Below are positions 21,136 through 62,304 of a DNA stretch of 64,000 nt, piece after piece. Source of the DNA: Rhodoplanes tepidamans (GTDB taxonomy: Bacteria > Pseudomonadota > Alphaproteobacteria > Rhizobiales > Xanthobacteraceae); assembly GCF_030813915.1 (NCBI RefSeq), contig NZ_JAUSUJ010000021.1, positions 62,001 through 126,000 of the forward strand. Direction: 5' to 3'. The translations under genes and the position numbers were made by a program. Under the pieces are notes generated by a model. It did not search any database. It was not told the DNA's origin and saw only the letters and a program-made list of their open reading frames with translations. How positions within the stretch are numbered: position 1 is the first letter of the stretch; the number at the start of each line of letters is the position of its first letter.

Positions 21136-24100
21136 TCACCAGGAGTATCGGAGGCCGGCCGTGCCCGCGAAGGTGCGGCTGTGGCCGGCGACCTCGCCGT
21201 CGAACTTCGCCATGAGCGCGAAGCCGTTGGCGAAGCGCATCTCGGCGCCGGCCGAGACCAGGGCGAGGTCGCGCGCCGGCGTGGCGCCTTCAACCACGAA
21301 GCCGGCGCCGGGGAGCGCCTGGAACGCGACCGCGAGGGTGGGATCGCTCACCCGGTCGTGCGCCCAGGCGAGCTTGCCGCGCAGCGCCAGCGCGGCGTCG
21401 GGCGTCACCGCCACCACGGTCTCCAGCCGCGCGCCGGCCTCGGTGCGCAGCGCCGTCGCGGTGCGGTCCGCGTAAGCGAGGCCGAAGCCGTCGCCGCTCG
21501 GATCGCTCTCGCCGACGCCGGGCATCACGAAGGCCTGGGCCTGCACGGCCGCGTAGGGGGTGACGCCGGCGCCGAGCCATCCGAGCCGCCAGCCGGCCTC
21601 GGCGCGGCCGCCCCAGCTCTGCGCCTCGTAGCGGCCGGTGAGCCGGCTGCCGCCGAACGTCGTGCGGTCGGTCGACACCCAGTGCTCCGCGAAGGCCAGC
21701 GAGGTCGCCAGATAGGCGGGACCGGACGTGGAGGTGCCGTAGACGCCGGCCTGGACCGCATCGCTGCTGCCGCCGCCGAGCCCCTGGGCGAGGCTCCAGC
21801 TCGTGCCGCCGCCGCCGAGCGCGAAGCCCAGCGTGGTGAACGGCGTCACCCGGTAGTCGCCGCCCGCCGCGAAGCCGGCGGCGCGGGCCGACAGGTCGTG
21901 GCTGCCGACCATCGCGTCGCCCTCGATCCGGCCGGAGCCGCCATAGGCCGAGCCCCAGACGCTCCAGCGCGGTCCGCTCGAACCCGCGGCCGGCGCCTTC
22001 GCCAGCGCCGCGAAGGCCGCCGTGGCGGGCGAGCGCGGCGCGTCGGCGGCGGCGTAGCCGAGCGCGCCGCCCTGGCTCGCGCCGATGCCGGTCCCGGCCC
22101 GGCCGTCGACGAACGGGTCGGTCATCAGGCCCAGGAAGGCCGTCATCATCTGGAACGCGCCCTGCGGCGCGCCGGTCGCGGCCTCGCCGGAGAGCTGGGT
22201 CAGAGCCTGGGCGAGAGGCTGACCGGTGAGGCCGACCACGGAGACGAAGCCGGGCGGCAGCGCGCCGCCGGAGTTGAAGTACCGGCTGAGCGATGCTGCG
22301 ACGGCCGCCTGGTTGCGCGACAGGCCGGTGGCGCTGTCGAGCCCGAGCATGAGATCGAGCGACACGCTGTTCGGCGCCGAATAGTCCAGCGCGGCGATGA
22401 AGCCTGCCGGAAGATTGCTGGTCACCAGACTGTCGAACGTGCCGCTGCGGCTGCCGGCGGTGAGGATCGTGTAGCTCTTCGTCACGTAGCTGCCGGCGGC
22501 GAAATAGGCCTGCACGGTGCCGGCCAGCGTCGCCGCGCCGCTGACCACGGCCTGCGACGCCGAGGTCGGGTCGAGCGCGACCTGATAGATCGCGCCCGCC
22601 GTGAAGCCGAGATTGCCGGCGACCGTCATGGTGGTGCCGGCGGTTCCGGTGCCGGGCGCGAAGACGCCGCCGCTGTTCACCGTGACACTGCCGGCCGTGC
22701 CGGTGCCGGCCAGCGTGCCGCCGGCGTTCACGCTGGTGGCCGAGCCCGTGATGACGCCGCCGGATCCGAGGTACAACACGCCGCCGTCGATCGTGGTGGC
22801 ACCCGTGTAGGTGCTGGCGCCGGTCAGCATCTCGACGCCGGCCGCGAGCGTCAGGCCACCCGAGCCGGTGAGATCGCCGGCGAACGTGGAGGACGCGTTC
22901 GACAGCGTCAGAGTCTTGCCGCCGAGATCGACGGTGCTGCCGGCGACGCCGGCCAGCGTCGTGATGGTGGCGCCGGCCGTGGTGGCGGAGATGTCGAAGG
23001 TGGCGCCGGCGGCGATGCCGACGCCGCTCGACGCCGCGATGCTGCCGGCCCCGCTCAGCGCCAGCGTGCCGGCGTTGATGACGGTCGCGCCCGTGTAGCC
23101 GTTGACGGCGGCGAGCGTCAGCGTGCCGGCGCCGGCCTTGGTGACGCTGCCGGTGCCGGTCAGGCCGGTCGCGAACGTGACGGTGTTGCTGTTGGTGTCG
23201 AAGGTGCCGCCGTTGGCGCCGATGGCAGCGAGGCGCGCCGAGATGTCGGTCGAGGTGCCGGTCGCCCATTGCAGGCCGCCACCGTCGAGCGTGATCGGGC
23301 CGGTGCCGAAATTGTTCGCGGCGCTGAAGTTGATCAGGCCGCCGAGGACCAGGGTGCCGCCCGTGTAGGTGTTGGTGCCGGTCAACGTCAGCGTGCCCAG
23401 CCCCGCCTTGGTCAGCATGCCGTTGTTGATGATCGTGCCGGACAGCGTCAGGTCGAAGCCGTTGGTGTCGACGACGCCGCCGAGCGCCAGCAGCGAGATC
23501 GTCTTCGCGGTGCTGAAAGAACCGTCGAGCTTGAGGGTGCCGCCGTTGAAGATGACGTACTGGTCGAGGCCGAGCGCCGTCAGCGCCGCGTCGCTGCCGG
23601 CCGACACGGCGCCGCCGGTCGCGACGATGATGTTGGGACCGATCCAGCCGGTGCCGACGTTGAGACCGGAGGTGATCGGCGTGCTCACTGTGCCGACGAT
23701 GGTGTTGGTCACCGTGTCGAACACATAGGCACCGTTGCCGTTCGACACATAGATCCGCGAGCCGTCCGGCGCCGCCGTGACGCCGGTTGCGTTGGGAGCC
23801 GACACCGTGGCGACGATGGCATTGGTCGCCGTGTCGATGACAAAGAGCTGGTCTAACTGGTTGTTGACGTAGACGCGGGTGCCATCACGGGAGATGGTGA
23901 CGCCCAAGGGTGCACCGCTGAGCGGGATGATGGCGACTACCGACTGAGTTGCGACGTCGATGACCGAGACAGAGCCGCCTTGGCTCGCGACGTAGATTTT
24001 GGTGCCGTCCGGCGACGACGCGATGCCGCTCGGGCTGCTGCCCACGGCAATCGTGGCGACGACGGTCCGGGTCGTCGTATCGACGACCGACACGCTGTTT

Positions 24101-24693
24101 GAGTTCAGGTTTGCCACATAAAGGCGGTTGCCACCCGACGAGACGGTGACGCCGTACGGGCCCGAGCCGACCGGGATCGGGGAGCCGACGACCTGGTTGG
24201 AGGCCGTGGAGATCACCGAGACCGAGTTGCTGTCCACGGCGGAGGCGTAGACATATTGTCCGTCGGGGCTGATTGCGATCCCATAGGGTCGAAGGCCCAC
24301 CGATATCGTCGTGACGATCGCTCCCGCCGCCACGTCCAGGACCGTGACCGTGTTGGTCCCGGCGCTCACCAGATAGGCGTATCGGCCGTCCGGCGAGAAC
24401 ACGGCATTCTGCGGATAGCGTCCGACCGTGATGACCGAGCCGATGGTCGTGTTGGTCAGGGTGGAGAACGCGATGATTGCGCCAGGGTCGGTATTTATGC
24501 CGGTGAGCAGGCCGTAGGCGTCGATCCCGGCGCGGGCTGGGCTCGCCAGGATCAGACAGCCAAGCGGCACAAGAACGACCCCCAGCCGCCGGTGCGCGCG
24601 GCGCCGCGATCGTCCCGGGCTGCCGGCCGCGCGGGAGAGGCGGCGGTCGGCGAGGCCGAGACAGGCGGGACGTCGCGGGAGTCGGGGGGCCAC
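21136..24693 (-). CDS. Autotransporter with an N-terminal YVTN beta-propeller and beta-helical passenger
   Basis: 1185 residues from a GTG at 24693 with GAGG just upstream. Order: long Arg-rich signal peptide ending SPARA (residue 55); about six YVTN-type blades (residues 57-335) with repeated SPDG, YV and VxDTxT elements; then Gly/Thr/Asn-rich passenger repeats with NTYTGGT, STYTGAT and similar PATR-type turns (about 345-680); then a C-terminal 12-strand barrel domain (about 910-1185) ending RYSW. A type Va autotransporter: the passenger is exported to the cell surface. The propeller probably binds a partner. It is divergent from an AraC-family regulator that may control it. Confidence 0.92.
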   Translation of the reverse strand: MAPRLPRRPACLGLADRRLSRAAGSPGRSRRRAHRRLGVVLVPLGCLILASPARAGIDAYGLLTGINTDPGAIIAFSTLTNTTIGSVITVGRYPQNAVFSPDGRYAYLVSAGTNTVTVLDVAAGAIVTTISVGLRPYGIAISPDGQYVYASAVDSNSVSVISTASNQVVGSPIPVGSGPYGVTVSSGGNRLYVANLNSNSVSVVDTTTRTVVATIAVGSSPSGIASSPDGTKIYVASQGGSVSVIDVATQSVVAIIPLSGAPLGVTISRDGTRVYVNNQLDQLFVIDTATNAIVATVSAPNATGVTAAPDGSRIYVSNGNGAYVFDTVTNTIVGTVSTPITSGLNVGTGWIGPNIIVATGGAVSAGSDAALTALGLDQYVIFNGGTLKLDGSFSTAKTISLLALGGVVDTNGFDLTLSGTIINNGMLTKAGLGTLTLTGTNTYTGGTLVLGGLINFSAANNFGTGPITLDGGGLQWATGTSTDISARLAAIGANGGTFDTNSNTVTFATGLTGTGSVTKAGAGTLTLAAVNGYTGATVINAGTLALSGAGSIAASSGVGIAAGATFDISATTAGATITTLAGVAGSTVDLGGKTLTLSNASSTFAGDLTGSGGLTLAAGVEMLTGASTYTGATTIDGGVLYLGSGGVITGSATSVNAGGTLAGTGTAGSVTVNSGGVFAPGTGTAGTTMTVAGNLGFTAGAIYQVALDPTSASQAVVSGAATLAGTVQAYFAAGSYVTKSYTILTAGSRSGTFDSLVTSNLPAGFIAALDYSAPNSVSLDLMLGLDSATGLSRNQAAVAASLSRYFNSGGALPPGFVSVVGLTGQPLAQALTQLSGEAATGAPQGAFQMMTAFLGLMTDPFVDGRAGTGIGASQGGALGYAAADAPRSPATAAFAALAKAPAAGSSGPRWSVWGSAYGGSGRIEGDAMVGSHDLSARAAGFAAGGDYRVTPFTTLGFALGGGGTSWSLAQGLGGGSSDAVQAGVYGTSTSGPAYLATSLAFAEHWVSTDRTTFGGSRLTGRYEAQSWGGRAEAGWRLGWLGAGVTPYAAVQAQAFVMPGVGESDPSGDGFGLAYADRTATALRTEAGARLETVVAVTPDAALALRGKLAWAHDRVSDPTLAVAFQALPGAGFVVEGATPARDLALVSAGAEMRFANGFALMAKFDGEVAGHSRTFAGTAGLRYSW

Positions 24694-24903
24694 GGTGCGG
24701 TCCTCTGCGGATGATCGAGCAACACAGCGTAACGAACCGGCGGAGGCGCGATGTGCCGAGCGTCTCAGCGACGGATTTGGTTTCCGCTTGTTGCCGGTCC
24801 GCCACAGCGGTCGGACGCGCGGTTCGATCCGGCGGCGTGACGATGCCGGCTCCACGATGCGGCTGCCGGCGCGGTCAAATTTCCGGACTGTTTCGCGCGT
24901 GAT

Positions 24904-25995
24904 ATGATGACGACACGAGTTGAAGTGCGACGAGGCCACGCGCCCCGGAACATGCCCGCGACCCAGACGAGAGTCCGCTTGGAAGAACCCCCGAAGAGCG
25001 AGTGCTTCCGTGGCGCTTCGGCGCTCGCCGCGATGCGCGATGCGACCGTCGAGCTGTGCGATGTCACGACCCTGACGGACCCGGAGGTCTTTCGGTTCTC
25101 TTCGCGGGCGATAGCGATCGGCCAAGCGCTGCTTCTCGACTCGGTCTCGACCGGCCTCCGCTATGTCCGCACGCCCGCCCACATCGCCCGCGGCGACATG
25201 GATCACTATCTCGTCTCCCTCTGCCTCGCGGGCGAGATGCAGTTCGCCTCCGGGCGCCGCCACGTCACGGTGCGGCCGGGCGACATCTGCCTCGTCGACA
25301 TGGCCCAGCCGAACCGGACCTGGCTGACGGAGGCGGACCATGCGGGATCCCGGATCGCCACCGTCGTGCTGCCGCGCGCCGTGCTGGCGCCGCGGCTCGC
25401 GCATCCGGATTCGGCGACCGCGTCGGTGCTGCGGCACGACGACCGCCGGGCGCAGCTTCTGGCCGGCCAGATCGCGGCTCTGCGGCAGCACCCCGCGCCG
25501 CCGGCGGGCGACGTCTCGGACGCGGTCGAGGCGATGGCCGAGATGGTCGCGGCCGCGGTCGGCAGGGCCGCCGACACGGCCGAGGCGGCCGCGCGGGCCG
25601 ACCGCCATCTGCTGCTCGCGGCGATCAAGCGCCGCATCGAGGCGCATCTCGAGACCGACGACCTGACCGCCGGGACGCTCGGTCGACAGTTCGGGCTATC
25701 CCGCGCCAGCCTCTACCGCCTGTTCGAAGGCGACGGCGGGCTGACCCGGTACGTGCAGGACCGGCGCCTCGCGCGCGCCTTGAAGCTCCTGGTCGCGCCG
25801 GACATGCGCCACGAGCGCCTGATCGATCTCGCCATCGATCTCCGGTTCAGCAGCGACACCACCTTCGTGCGGGCGTTCCGCCGGCAATTCGGCGTGACGC
25901 CGGGCGAGATCCGAGAGATCTCGCGCGCCTGGCTTCGCGACGCCGGCAGGGCGCCCAAGCCCGCCGAGGTGCTCCGCAAGCTGGGCCGGGCCTGA
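24904..25995 (+). CDS. AraC-family transcriptional regulator
   Basis: 363 residues; the start is uncertain because the ATG pair at 24904/24907 lacks a good ribosome site. An ATG at 24952 is an alternative. N-terminal cupin-like AraC_binding_2 domain (about 60-200) and C-terminal double helix-turn-helix with LGRQFGLSRASLYRLF and FSSDTTFVRAFRRQFGVTPGEIRE. Such proteins activate a neighbouring promoter on ligand or stress. The 210-bp intergenic region with the autotransporter gene is the obvious target, though no operator can be named. Confidence 0.9.
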   Translation: MMTTRVEVRRGHAPRNMPATQTRVRLEEPPKSECFRGASALAAMRDATVELCDVTTLTDPEVFRFSSRAIAIGQALLLDSVSTGLRYVRTPAHIARGDMDHYLVSLCLAGEMQFASGRRHVTVRPGDICLVDMAQPNRTWLTEADHAGSRIATVVLPRAVLAPRLAHPDSATASVLRHDDRRAQLLAGQIAALRQHPAPPAGDVSDAVEAMAEMVAAAVGRAADTAEAAARADRHLLLAAIKRRIEAHLETDDLTAGTLGRQFGLSRASLYRLFEGDGGLTRYVQDRRLARALKLLVAPDMRHERLIDLAIDLRFSSDTTFVRAFRRQFGVTPGEIREISRAWLRDAGRAPKPAEVLRKLGRA

Positions 25996-28713: not shown

Positions 28714-29751
28714 ATGTCCTCTGAAATTTCTGCTCCGCCGGTCGCGGAGGCCGTCGCGCCGTCGCGCGGGCGGACCTCGCGTGCCGTCCGCCTCGTCGCG
28801 CCCGCCGTCGCGCTCGTGATCGCGATCGTGCTCGTCGGCATGGTGCTGCTGCAGCTGCGCGCCCAGGACGCTGCCGACGCGCGCGACCGCGACATCCGCA
28901 TGCGGCTCGTCGCCGCCACGCTGACCGGCGCCTTCGACAATGCCGGCAAGTTCGCGCTGTCGCTCGCCGAGGCGACGGCGCGGCGCCCCGATGTGACCGA
29001 CGCGCTGGCGGTGCTCGACCGCTCCCGCCTGCAGGTGCTGTCGCAGGGGCCGTACGACTACCTGAATCGCCAGGCCGGCGTTCAGATCTACGGCTATCAC
29101 ACGATGGATCTCCGCTACCTGCTGCGCATGCACCGGCCGGATACGTTCGGCGACGACATCTCGGGCTTCCGGCCGATGATCGTCGCCGCCAACCGCAGCC
29201 GCCGTGCCCAGACCGGCGTGGAGCTTGGAATCGCCGGCCTCGGCATCCGCGGCGTCGCGCTGGTGGAGCGCACCGCGACCGGGGAGAGCGGCAAGCAGCC
29301 GGTCGGCACCATGGAGGTCGGGCTCGACATGCGGCCGATCCTCGATCTCGTGAAGGCGTCGACCAATGCCGACGTCGCCGTGGTGATCGCGCCGGCCATG
29401 GTCGGGGTCGCGCTTGATCCCAAGCTGCCGCGCTTCGGCGACCTCGTGCTGGCGCTGTCGACCGACGACGACCGCTTCGCCGCGTTGCTCAAGAGCACCC
29501 GCATGCGGGCGCTGCGCGACGTGCAGGTGGAGACGCGGGACATCGAGGGCCGGCCGTTCAGCGTGGTGTCGCAGCCGCTGGTCGACTTCTCGGGCCGGCT
29601 GGTCGGCATGACCATCGCGATCGAGGAGATTCCGAACGACCGCGGTCGCCTGCGCACCGAGCTCGTTGTCGCGGCGGTGTGCGGCGGCATTCTCGCCTGG
29701 ATCGTCTTCGCGGTGCTGTTGCGCGCCGTGCTCGGGCGGGGGCGCCCGTGA
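28714..29751 (+). CDS. Membrane-anchored double-Cache sensor protein without an output domain
   Basis: 345 residues. Two membrane helices (about 26-47 and 316-339) bracket a periplasmic domain. Its IYGYHTMDLRYLLRMHRPD (125-143), GFRPMIVAANRS (151-162) and VELGIAGLGIRG (169-180) segments match the dCache_3 family found on chemoreceptors and histidine kinases. Here the chain stops five residues after TM2, with no HAMP, kinase or methyl-accepting part. Its TGA overlaps the GTG of a pentameric ligand-gated channel gene. I infer that it senses a small ligand and passes the signal to that channel. Confidence 0.85.
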   Translation: MSSEISAPPVAEAVAPSRGRTSRAVRLVAPAVALVIAIVLVGMVLLQLRAQDAADARDRDIRMRLVAATLTGAFDNAGKFALSLAEATARRPDVTDALAVLDRSRLQVLSQGPYDYLNRQAGVQIYGYHTMDLRYLLRMHRPDTFGDDISGFRPMIVAANRSRRAQTGVELGIAGLGIRGVALVERTATGESGKQPVGTMEVGLDMRPILDLVKASTNADVAVVIAPAMVGVALDPKLPRFGDLVLALSTDDDRFAALLKSTRMRALRDVQVETRDIEGRPFSVVSQPLVDFSGRLVGMTIAIEEIPNDRGRLRTELVVAAVCGGILAWIVFAVLLRAVLGRGRP

Positions 29752-30806
29752 GGCTGCTCCTGGCCGGCCTCGCGCTCGCGGTCCTGCTGATCGGCGCGGC
29801 CGCCGCGGACGAGCCCCGCACCGGCCTGCCGGCCGGGGTCGAGCTGCCGGTGCGGGTGCGGGTGGCGCTGCGCGTCCTCGACGTGCTCGACGTCAAGGAG
29901 ACGGCCGGGGAGGGGCGCTTCTTCGTCGAGATCACCCAGCGCTGGCGCGACCCGCGGCTCGCCTTCGACGCGGTCGCGGTCGGCAGTGCGCGCGTCGACC
30001 GTGTCGCCGGCGAGGCGGACGCCTTCCTCGCCTCGATCTGGACGCCCGGTCTCGTCATCGACAACCAGGTCGGCGGGCGGGAGTCGCGCACCGTCGCGGT
30101 CGCCACCTACGCCAACGGCGAGGTGGTGTTGATCGAGCGGTTCGAGAGCGATTTCCGGTTCCGCATGAACATGGACGCGTTCCCGTTCGACCGACAGAAC
30201 CTCGTGCTGTCGCTGTCGCTGCCGCGCTACGCCAAGCAGGAGGCGATCCTGATCACCACCGAGACGGACCGACTGCTGTCCGGCGTCGAGGAGTCCTCGC
30301 CGGTGGTCTGGCGGCCGGTGCGGCTGCGCTTCGCCAACGACGAGGTCATGGGCTGGAACGCGCGCAGCTACTCGCGGCTCGCCGCGACGGTCGAGCTGGC
30401 GCGCAAGTCGGACCGCTACATCCTGCGCATCTTCGTGCCGCTGTTCGCGGTGCTGTCGGTGTCGCTGTTCGTGCTCTGGTCGCCGGCGCTGCGCGAGCAG
30501 GAGAAGGACAAGGGCACCATGATCTTCTCCTCGCTGCTCGGCCTCGCGGCGCTGAGCTTCACGTTCGAGTCGAGCTTCCCGGGCGCGATCTCGCTCAACA
30601 CGCCGGTCGCCCAGATGATCTCGCTCGGCTACCTGTACCTGGTGCTGGTGCTGATGATCGAGGTCGGGCTCACCGCCGCCTGCGCCGATCCGACCCGCCG
30701 CTTCCACGCCGCCTGCCTCGAGCTCCGCCGCCAGATCCGCTGGGGCCTGCCGGTGATGATGCTGGTCGTGTGCGTCGGCATCGCGGTGCGTGCCCTGCCG
30801 GGGTGA
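29748..30806 (+). CDS. Prokaryotic pentameric ligand-gated ion channel (Cys-loop/Pro-loop family)
   Basis: 352 residues from a GTG overlapping the previous stop by 4 bp. Signal peptide (1-20). Extracellular beta-sandwich (about 30-222) with WRDPR (66-70), WTP (98-100), Asn106 and the Pro-loop FPFDRQ (145-150) that lacks the flanking Cys pair, as in other bacterial members. Four helices follow: M1 about 224-244, M2 about 256-276, M3 about 288-309 (ending IEV, as in GLIC), M4 about 331-349. M2 reads Asp254(-1'), Lys255(0'), Thr257(2'), Ser261(6'), Leu264(9'), the pattern of cation channels. Forms a homopentameric inner-membrane channel; ligand unknown. Confidence 0.93.
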   Translation: MRLLLAGLALAVLLIGAAAADEPRTGLPAGVELPVRVRVALRVLDVLDVKETAGEGRFFVEITQRWRDPRLAFDAVAVGSARVDRVAGEADAFLASIWTPGLVIDNQVGGRESRTVAVATYANGEVVLIERFESDFRFRMNMDAFPFDRQNLVLSLSLPRYAKQEAILITTETDRLLSGVEESSPVVWRPVRLRFANDEVMGWNARSYSRLAATVELARKSDRYILRIFVPLFAVLSVSLFVLWSPALREQEKDKGTMIFSSLLGLAALSFTFESSFPGAISLNTPVAQMISLGYLYLVLVLMIEVGLTAACADPTRRFHAACLELRRQIRWGLPVMMLVVCVGIAVRALPG

Positions 30807-60687: not shown

Positions 60688-62304
60688 ATGAGCAAGCGCA
60701 GCGGCCTCGCGGGGCTCGTCGACTTCGCGCGGCGCGAGCCGTTCGACGTGCTGATCGTCGTGCTGGTGCTGCACGTCTTCGTGTGGACGCTGCTGCCGGC
60801 CTTCCTCAACGCCAACCTGCAGCTCGATCTCGCCGAGGATCTGGCGCTCGGCAAGGAGTGGCAGCTCGTCTACTGGAAGCATCCGCCGCTGCCGTGGTGG
60901 ATCGCGGCGGGCCTTTATCAGCTCACCGGCGACGTGCGGATGATCTATCTGCTCGGCCCGCTCGCCTCGGCGGTGGCGATGTGGGCGGTGTGGCGGCTCG
61001 GCAAGGACATCGTCGGCGGCTTTCCGGCCCTGCTCGCCGTGCTGGTGCTGGAAGGCCTGCACTTCTTCAACTTCTCGGTCATCAAGTTCGCGCACGACCA
61101 GTGCCAGCTCCCGTTCTGGGCGTTGACCGCGCTGTTCTTCCATCGCGCCCTCACCCGGGAAAGGATCATCGACTGGGCGCTCGCCGGCATCTTCCTGGCA
61201 CTGTCCTTCTGGTCGAAATACGCCGCCTTCGCGCTCGCCGCGACGCTCGGGCTGTTCCTGCTGGTCGATCGCGACGCGCGAAAGGCGTGGGCGACGCCGG
61301 GGCCGTACGTGATGGCGCTGGCCTTCGCGTTGGTCATCGCGCCGAACGCCTGGGCTCTGGTACAGAGCGATTTCCTGCCCTTCCGCTATGTCGACGCGCG
61401 CGCGAAAGCGGCCACCCACTGGTGGCAGTTCGCCTGGTTCCCGGTGCAGTGGACGCTCGGTCAGATCGGCTTCCTGCTGCCGACCCTGGGCCTGCTCGCA
61501 CTGCTCTGGCCGCTGCGCCGCGCCGGCGGTGCGCAGAGGCCCCTGACCGTCGGGAACGTCGACCCCAACGTGATCAGCCCCGGCGCCTTCGACCGGCGCT
61601 GTCTCGCCTGGATGGCGCTCGGGCCGTTCGCGGTCACGACGCTGGTCGCGGTGCTGCTCGGCCGGCTGCCGGTCGCCATGTGGGGCTATCCACTGTGGTC
61701 GATCCTGCCGCTCGCCATCGTCGCGTGGCGCGGCGCGCCGTTCGAGGACGTGCGGCTGATCCGCTTCGCGCTAGGCTTCGTCGCCGTCTTCGTGATCATG
61801 CCGCTCGTCTATGTGGTGGTCGAGGAGGTCGAGCCGATGGTGCGCGACCGGCCCAAGGCGACCCAGTTCCCCGGCCGGCGCCTCGCCGAGATCGTCACCC
61901 GCGACTTCTTCGAGAAGACCGGCCAGCCGCTCGCCTACGTCACCGGCACCGAGTTCGCCGCCAACAATGTCGCGGTCTACGGGCCGACCCGGCCGCACGT
62001 CATCGTCCACGGCGACCCGAAGCTCAGCCCGTGGATCGACATGGCCGACGTGAAGAAGCGCGGCCTGCTGATCGTCTGGGAGCCGCAGGGCGAGGCGCTG
62101 GTGGACGAGTGGATGAAGACCTTCCCGGGCGCTACGGTGCGGGGCCGCCTGATGCTGCCGCGTCAGGCGCACGGCAAGGTCGCCCCGGTCCGGCTGCAAT
62201 ACGCCATCGTGCCGCCGGAGGGCGCGCCGCTGATCATTCTGCCGCCCGGCGCCGGGCGGCCCGGCACGGTGCAGCCGCCCGGCACGGTGCAGCCGCCGAA
62301 GTGA
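60688..62304 (+). CDS. GT39-like membrane glycosyltransferase (PMT/ArnT-type)
   Basis: 538 residues with about 8-10 membrane helices. The first luminal/periplasmic loop has the LDLAEDLALGKEWQLVYWKHPPLPWW pattern, with conserved Asp/Glu and Lys-His-Pro as in dolichol-/polyprenyl-phosphate-mannose-type enzymes (here the first acid lies in the AED region). The C-terminal periplasmic part has AYVTGTEFAANNVAVYGP. Transfers a sugar from a lipid carrier to an envelope acceptor; the acceptor is unknown. The tail has a duplicated PGTVQPP unit. Confidence 0.85.
   Translation: MSKRSGLAGLVDFARREPFDVLIVVLVLHVFVWTLLPAFLNANLQLDLAEDLALGKEWQLVYWKHPPLPWWIAAGLYQLTGDVRMIYLLGPLASAVAMWAVWRLGKDIVGGFPALLAVLVLEGLHFFNFSVIKFAHDQCQLPFWALTALFFHRALTRERIIDWALAGIFLALSFWSKYAAFALAATLGLFLLVDRDARKAWATPGPYVMALAFALVIAPNAWALVQSDFLPFRYVDARAKAATHWWQFAWFPVQWTLGQIGFLLPTLGLLALLWPLRRAGGAQRPLTVGNVDPNVISPGAFDRRCLAWMALGPFAVTTLVAVLLGRLPVAMWGYPLWSILPLAIVAWRGAPFEDVRLIRFALGFVAVFVIMPLVYVVVEEVEPMVRDRPKATQFPGRRLAEIVTRDFFEKTGQPLAYVTGTEFAANNVAVYGPTRPHVIVHGDPKLSPWIDMADVKKRGLLIVWEPQGEALVDEWMKTFPGATVRGRLMLPRQAHGKVAPVRLQYAIVPPEGAPLIILPPGAGRPGTVQPPGTVQPPK

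Follow-up and report, generated by a model that had tools for sequence, protein, structure and literature searches.

For most bacterial pentameric ligand-gated ion channels (pLGICs), native ligand and role are unknown, and the model channels are studied as lone homopentamers; no earlier pLGIC is known to us to be gated by a separate sensor subunit. The closest described arrangement is that of Tasneem et al. (2005, PMC549065), who, in the portion of their paper drawn on here, reported that a stand-alone Cache domain and a pLGIC share a predicted operon in Rhodopseudomonas, proposed that the two cooperate, suggested a role in chemotaxis and noted a parallel with the alpha2delta subunit of voltage-gated calcium (CaV) channels. 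The same portion describes fusions of pLGICs with PBP-I and with MCP-N plus Cache domains, as well as operons with PBP-II; the Cache operon is reported there for one bacterium, with no test described. The words 'operon' and 'Cache' are absent from the main text of the 2016 inventory of pLGICs (PMC4795631), and we found no later paper in the open-access literature that follows up Cache-pLGIC cooperation. Here we analyze a gene pair of this kind, a dCache_3 sensor followed by a pLGIC, in a 64,000-nucleotide stretch of Rhodoplanes tepidamans DNA (positions 62,001 to 126,000 of the 130.9-kb contig NZ_JAUSUJ010000021.1; genome 6.86 Mb), the whole of which we call the window.

The anatomy of the pair is clear from the reading frames, Pfam and a structure model, which agree with an earlier note on this DNA describing a two-helix dCache sensor without an output domain, a downstream pLGIC and a 4-bp GTGA overlap. 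The sensor scores 56.4 bits against Pfam dCache_3 (cut-off 25.7), carries no output domain, and belongs to the dCache_3 class by that score and by its two Cache lobes between two membrane helices; the channel scores 63.0 bits against Neur_chan_LBD (cut-off 26). That note's suggestion of a new architecture does not stand, since Tasneem et al. had already described a Cache-pLGIC operon and in-cis fusions, whereas its interpretation of the two proteins as partners is upheld by conserved linkage, and a single receptor is something we infer with the reserve expressed below. As far as literature searches reach, the finding is a well-supported member and generalization of a predicted arrangement: 52 of 52 named loci (a stand-alone Cache protein beside a pLGIC) resemble the operon of Tasneem et al., and three Rhodopseudomonas loci (L053, L054 and L056), matched by genus and arrangement, fall within the family. 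What we add is breadth, exclusivity, overlap statistics, matching trees, loss of output, a clade signature and a ligand prediction.

Genome contigs were scanned with a linked-channel alignment, which gave the 52 named loci; every one had a dCache gene immediately upstream in the same orientation, at 315–470 bits by profile. They span Rhodoplanes, Chelatococcus, Bosea, Bradyrhizobium, Rhodopseudomonas, Rhizobium, Shinella, Hoeflea, Reyranella, one Acidovorax and others, the nearest named relative being Rhodoplanes elegans (L031; channel 92% identical). Since the seeding alignment was built from linked channels only, linked-type channels were found first; unlinked channels came from the order-wide Pfam search and from the weaker hits of the class and phylum searches. 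Pfam found a pLGIC in 24 of 397 genomes of the order, and when the loci of that search were combined with two from the same genus, the sensor was present at all 13 distinct loci close to the window channel versus none of 16 distant pLGICs. Wider searches, in which at most five candidates were scored per genome, found a pLGIC in 20 of 394 genomes from the family of a Rhizobium genome, 6 of 385 from the class and 10 of 398 from the phylum. In the resulting 35 loci, some of them repeats of earlier places, the sensor stood beside 23 of 23 channels of at least 146 bits and beside 0 of 12 at 101 bits or less (one of these, L109, being a helicase frame). The linkage that the earlier note had looked for in diverse taxa thus extends over several genera and, with one of the 23 linked loci (L110), into another class of the phylum; it is kept by channels down to 38% identity to the window channel. 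A conserved third gene was considered and ruled out, the best neighbor cluster reaching 9 of 52 loci. Carriage of the pair by viruses or plasmids was likewise set aside, with no match in viral contigs and none in 72,556 plasmid records queried with the L067 channel.

The linkage is reciprocal. A sensor profile was run on 120 relatives, with up to 17 candidates scored per genome, and all six hits of at least 309 bits adjoin a pLGIC, two of them in genomes not previously known to hold one; their frames are 363–400 residues long, or 659 in G042. The next 29 hits (87–185 bits) are of a different kind: 28 lie in chemoreceptor-sized frames of 611–828 residues and one ends at a contig end, MCPsignal was found in all nine that were scanned, and HAMP also in eight of these, one of the eight being just below cut-off. 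Thirteen further hits below 31 bits fall outside these 6 + 29 classified ones. In 28 genomes chosen as pair-holders, each of 30 sensor hits of at least 276 bits matched a known pair, and no orphan sensor reached that score. The earlier note had held that sensor homologs standing apart from pLGIC genes would speak against it, and no strong hit of that kind was seen among the 120 relatives. By sequence, then, the linked sensor is a chemoreceptor that lacks the cytoplasmic half, and the searches made found it nowhere but next to the channel. Among 24 genus and family members (G000–G023), 3 hold both genes and 21 neither.

Overlap of the two frames, which the earlier note had proposed to look for in neighbors, is common to most relatives: the channel start overlaps the dCache stop in 44 of 52 (31 by 4 bp, 5 by 1 bp and 8 with both starts possible), an overlapping start having been taken wherever a start codon permitted, so that the 4-bp share depends on this rule. 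For the other eight, the channel start lies 1–4 nt past the sensor stop in seven and 34 nt past in one, and 51 of 52 starts are within 4 nt of the stop. Judged from these sequences, the overlap is more than chance would give. Alternative starts at GTG 28654 (a longer sensor) and GTG 29679 (upstream, for the channel) are possible, yet less probable, given that relatives align at 28714 and have the overlap in common. A scan between the two genes for the sigma-70 consensus found no promoter. Comparison with R. elegans gave dN/dS values of 0.28 for the dCache gene and 0.20 for the pLGIC gene, indicating that both are under purifying selection.

Gene trees agree with a long common history. A branch with 100/99 support separates the 69 linked channels from 20 unlinked ones, and another sets the 69 linked sensors apart from 14 chemoreceptors with the same support; a deep split into 10 and 59 members is identical in both trees, 43 of 66 splits are common to both, where 500 label shuffles gave no more than 2, and a mirrortree comparison of the distances in 53 pairs gave an r of 0.93. 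Linked pairs L089 and L093 were left out of the trees. Five partial unlinked channels (L027, L108, L115, L116 and L117) were dropped from the channel tree, and three channel loci were never used: L109, L113 (the same gene as L010) and L114 (internal stop). The chemoreceptor set comprised L124–L138 minus L127, which is cut by a contig end, with the weak hits L139–L147 excluded. Matching trees are expected of any co-inherited operon, and they therefore speak for an old partnership without deep partner swaps rather than for contact. Taken with the linkage, these sequence comparisons strongly support a sensor-channel partnership. The Acidovorax pair (L057) is nested in a mostly alphaproteobacterial clade in both trees, which suggests that it moved as a unit by transfer. 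Two genomes hold two pairs each, G489 (L085 and L103, one per deep clade) and G088 (L016 and L029). At L097 both proteins share one 754-residue frame on the minus strand; compared with L099 and L103, a gap of one nucleotide creates the shared frame, which points to a recent event or to an error of assembly, and we did not count it as a natural fusion.

The sensors have lost what chemoreceptors use on the cytoplasmic side. dCache_3 was found by Pfam in 53 of 53 family sensors, while none of the 53 carried an output domain (E ≤ 0.001) or MCPsignal, so that they do not class as methyl-accepting chemotaxis proteins (MCPs), in contrast to the nine of nine scanned dCache_3 homologs outside the pair. 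The AlphaFold2 model of the window sensor (pLDDT 91.7, pTM 0.83) has a long first transmembrane helix (TM1) running on into the periplasm, two Cache lobes, a second helix (TM2) and few residues after it. Across 68 sensors (L097 left out), the number of residues after TM2 is bimodal, at most 13 in 32 and 51–66 in 35, with a single sensor at 21. The longer tails begin in a HAMP-like way as judged by eye, and in a HAMP scan of six tailed relatives L016 alone scored, below cut-off. The 32 short-tailed sensors, the window's among them, make up one clade in both trees; so short a tail indicates that the cytoplasmic output module is gone there, and any signal would need to exit by way of the membrane or the periplasm. 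Compared with dCache_3 chemoreceptors, the linked sensors thus share a homologous domain and conserved core residues, Arg138, Arg153 and Gly168 each being present in 69 of 69 linked sensors and 14 of 14 chemoreceptors, whereas MCPsignal is missing and HAMP is a weak remnant or lost.

The outer Cache lobe of the sensor resembles the carboxylate sensor kinases CitA and DcuS, with a strong fold match to CitA, and differs from them in that theirs is a single sensor domain driving a histidine kinase and in that sequence similarity is not significant. Arg66 and Arg107 are ligand arginines of CitA (PMC3229521, in the portion drawn on). Their spacing of 41 residues equals that of Arg138 and Arg179 in the sensor, where Arg179 is aligned with Arg107 by a weak hidden Markov model match (E 0.93) and Arg138 is paired with Arg66 by spacing. 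Arg179 is present in 59 of 59 sensors of the main clade, whereas all 10 sensors of the sister clade have Phe there. From the model and these positions, we predict that the pair probably senses a carboxylate.

On the channel side, Neur_chan_LBD is kept in 53 of 53 family members, and F145 P146 F147 D148 and R219, which we take to be the Pro-loop and the pre-M1 arginine, are invariant across 53 aligned rows. Hydropathy of the window channel alone gives three helices and a signal peptide, and the modeled L082 channel has four C-terminal helices (M1–M4). The Pfam transmembrane model PF02932 was not among the window channel's matches at E ≤ 10, and the NCBIfam models TIGR00860 (74.9 of 280.2 bits) and NF033918 (59.3 of 500) matched clearly but below cut-off; by these profile scores, the window channel is a divergent pLGIC member. 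GLIC is the closest solved channel, reached by the family profile at 82 bits over most of the chain. It is named as proton-gated, with no partner sensor mentioned in the sources drawn on, and the linked clade differs from it at canonical agonist-box positions, which are altered yet conserved: the loop D position is acidic and the loop C tip is Gly-Trp, each in 69 of 69 linked channels, with Gly in 1 and Trp in 0 of 25 unlinked ones. The position of Asp254, presumably -1' of the pore, is acidic in 62 of 69 linked channels, with Asp in 8 of 20 unlinked ones.

We think it probable that the two genes encode one receptor, in which the half-chemoreceptor is a sensory subunit acting in trans on the channel. 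The upstream protein would be what is left of a chemoreceptor, a periplasmic dCache sensor with two membrane helices, and the downstream protein a Cys-loop (pLGIC) superfamily channel, presumably a cation-selective homopentamer. The outer Cache lobe would bind a small ligand from the periplasm, in the window's clade probably a di- or tricarboxylate, and the change in the lobe, passed on through TM2 or through periplasmic faces, would shift the open probability of the channel. In this picture, we infer the contact between the two proteins, the gating, the stoichiometry, the selectivity for ions and the class of ligand. When the L082 pair was read through its in-frame stop as one chain and co-folded 1:1 from three paired rows, both halves folded and the junction was disordered (pTM 0.52, one copy of each). 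A more specific version, which we advance tentatively and would not be surprised to see fail, is that the half-chemoreceptor is an obligate trans subunit gating the pentamer on a periplasmic carboxylate, that the channel replaces the cytoplasmic output, and that the neurotransmitter-type site has been rebuilt, with its acidic loop D and loop C Gly-Trp, as a docking or co-agonist site.

Several other explanations fit parts of the evidence. Tight linkage and overlapping frames would equally suit a dCache protein that serves in assembly, stability or trafficking, its sensor domain used for folding or docking and not for gating, and ligand at the dCache site of CaV alpha2delta affects trafficking of subunit and channel (PMC9901441, in the portion drawn on); the retained chemoreceptor core and the pocket arginine fixed in the main clade argue for ligand binding, and we consider this alternative unlikely. 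Somewhat less probable, in our view, is a dCache protein that concentrates or presents ligand to the orthosteric site of the channel without direct gating, the form in which Tasneem et al. cast the cooperation. The retained ligand-binding domain and the altered but conserved agonist-box positions would suit such a presenter, against which stands an anchor of two membrane helices, a costly build for a concentrator and unlike a soluble binding protein.

The two proteins might also be co-expressed with parallel outputs, the dCache protein acting on chemoreceptor arrays or a kinase and the channel working alone. MCPsignal proteins occur in 33 of 34 pair-bearing genomes (32 of these with 15–58 matches), which also fits the part in chemotaxis that Tasneem et al. 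suggested, and about half of the sensors keep a tail that looks HAMP-like by eye. Short-tailed sensors end within 13 residues of TM2, however, and no strong sensor hit without a channel was found in the genomes searched. The pair also occurs in G190, with one MCPsignal match, and in G494 (L102), a 99% complete genome with 0 matches, so that chemoreceptor arrays are not required everywhere, and we give parallel outputs less credence again. Neutral adjacency of unrelated genes deserves next to none: gene order may persist in close relatives, but this pair persists at deep divergence while other neighbors are not kept, and it is also present in Acidovorax and in one genome from another class.

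If the one-receptor reading is true, work on the isolated channel would overlook its physiological agonist, and the pair would offer a simple model for control of a channel by a Cache subunit, as by alpha2delta for calcium channels. On the more specific, tentative version, this would be, to our knowledge, the first pLGIC with a separate gating sensor subunit, convergent with the arrangement of CaV channels, in which a dCache-domain protein, alpha2delta, is an auxiliary subunit (PMC9901441, same portion). We claim no shared ancestry with alpha2delta, which differs in having a dCache_1 domain with an amino-acid motif, a lipid anchor and a voltage-gated partner; it was not among the fold matches listed for the sensor, which excludes nothing. 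DeCLIC and the PBP-I-pLGIC fusions likewise add a periplasmic domain to a pLGIC (PMC12664993, in the portion drawn on), but within the same polypeptide, whereas here the addition is a membrane protein in its own right, with a different fold. A defined pair, a residue signature and a carboxylate prediction make the receptor idea testable.

Features of the sensor-channel pair, in window coordinates
Feature	Position	Strand	Basis or remark
dCache_3 sensor protein, 345 residues, two membrane helices, without output domain; proposed sensory partner	28714..29751	+	Pfam, model; 345 codons, ATG 28714 to TGA 29749-29751
TM1 region of sensor, residues 21-54	28774..28875	+	hydropathy; model helix 20-89
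Membrane-distal Cache lobe, residues 71-210, fold like CitA/DcuS	28924..29343	+	
Arg138 codon of sensor	29125..29127	+	invariant; paired with CitA Arg66 by spacing
Arg179 codon of sensor	29248..29250	+	aligns with CitA Arg107 (weak match, E 0.93)
TM2 region of sensor, residues 313-343	29650..29742	+	hydropathy; model helix 310-342
GTGA, channel start over sensor stop	29748..29751	+	overlap common in relatives
pLGIC subunit, 352 residues, signal peptide	29748..30806	+	Neur_chan_LBD; GLIC nearest solved relative; 352 codons, GTG 29748 to TGA 30804-30806
Gly202-Trp203, loop C tip, signature of dCache-linked channels	30351..30356	+	
Asp254, putative -1' acidic ring of pore	30507..30509	+	

Elsewhere in the window, a long frame on the minus strand (21136–25647) reads by eye as a beta-propeller-like part followed by passenger-like repeats and an autotransporter-like end. 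Among the unlinked channels, L115 and L116 are distant pLGICs fused in cis to Peripla_BP_6, as in the PBP-I fusions of Tasneem et al. (PMC549065, same portion). Four other unlinked pLGIC genes, from four genomes of one genus (L018, L021, L022 and L023), start 10–26 nt after the end of the gene before them; at L018, L021 and L023, the three loci scanned, that gene matches Pyridoxal_deC, a decarboxylase family able to form amines. Primary amines activate ELIC (PMC3119659, in the portion drawn on), and by this analogy the enzyme and its adjoining channel may share a ligand.
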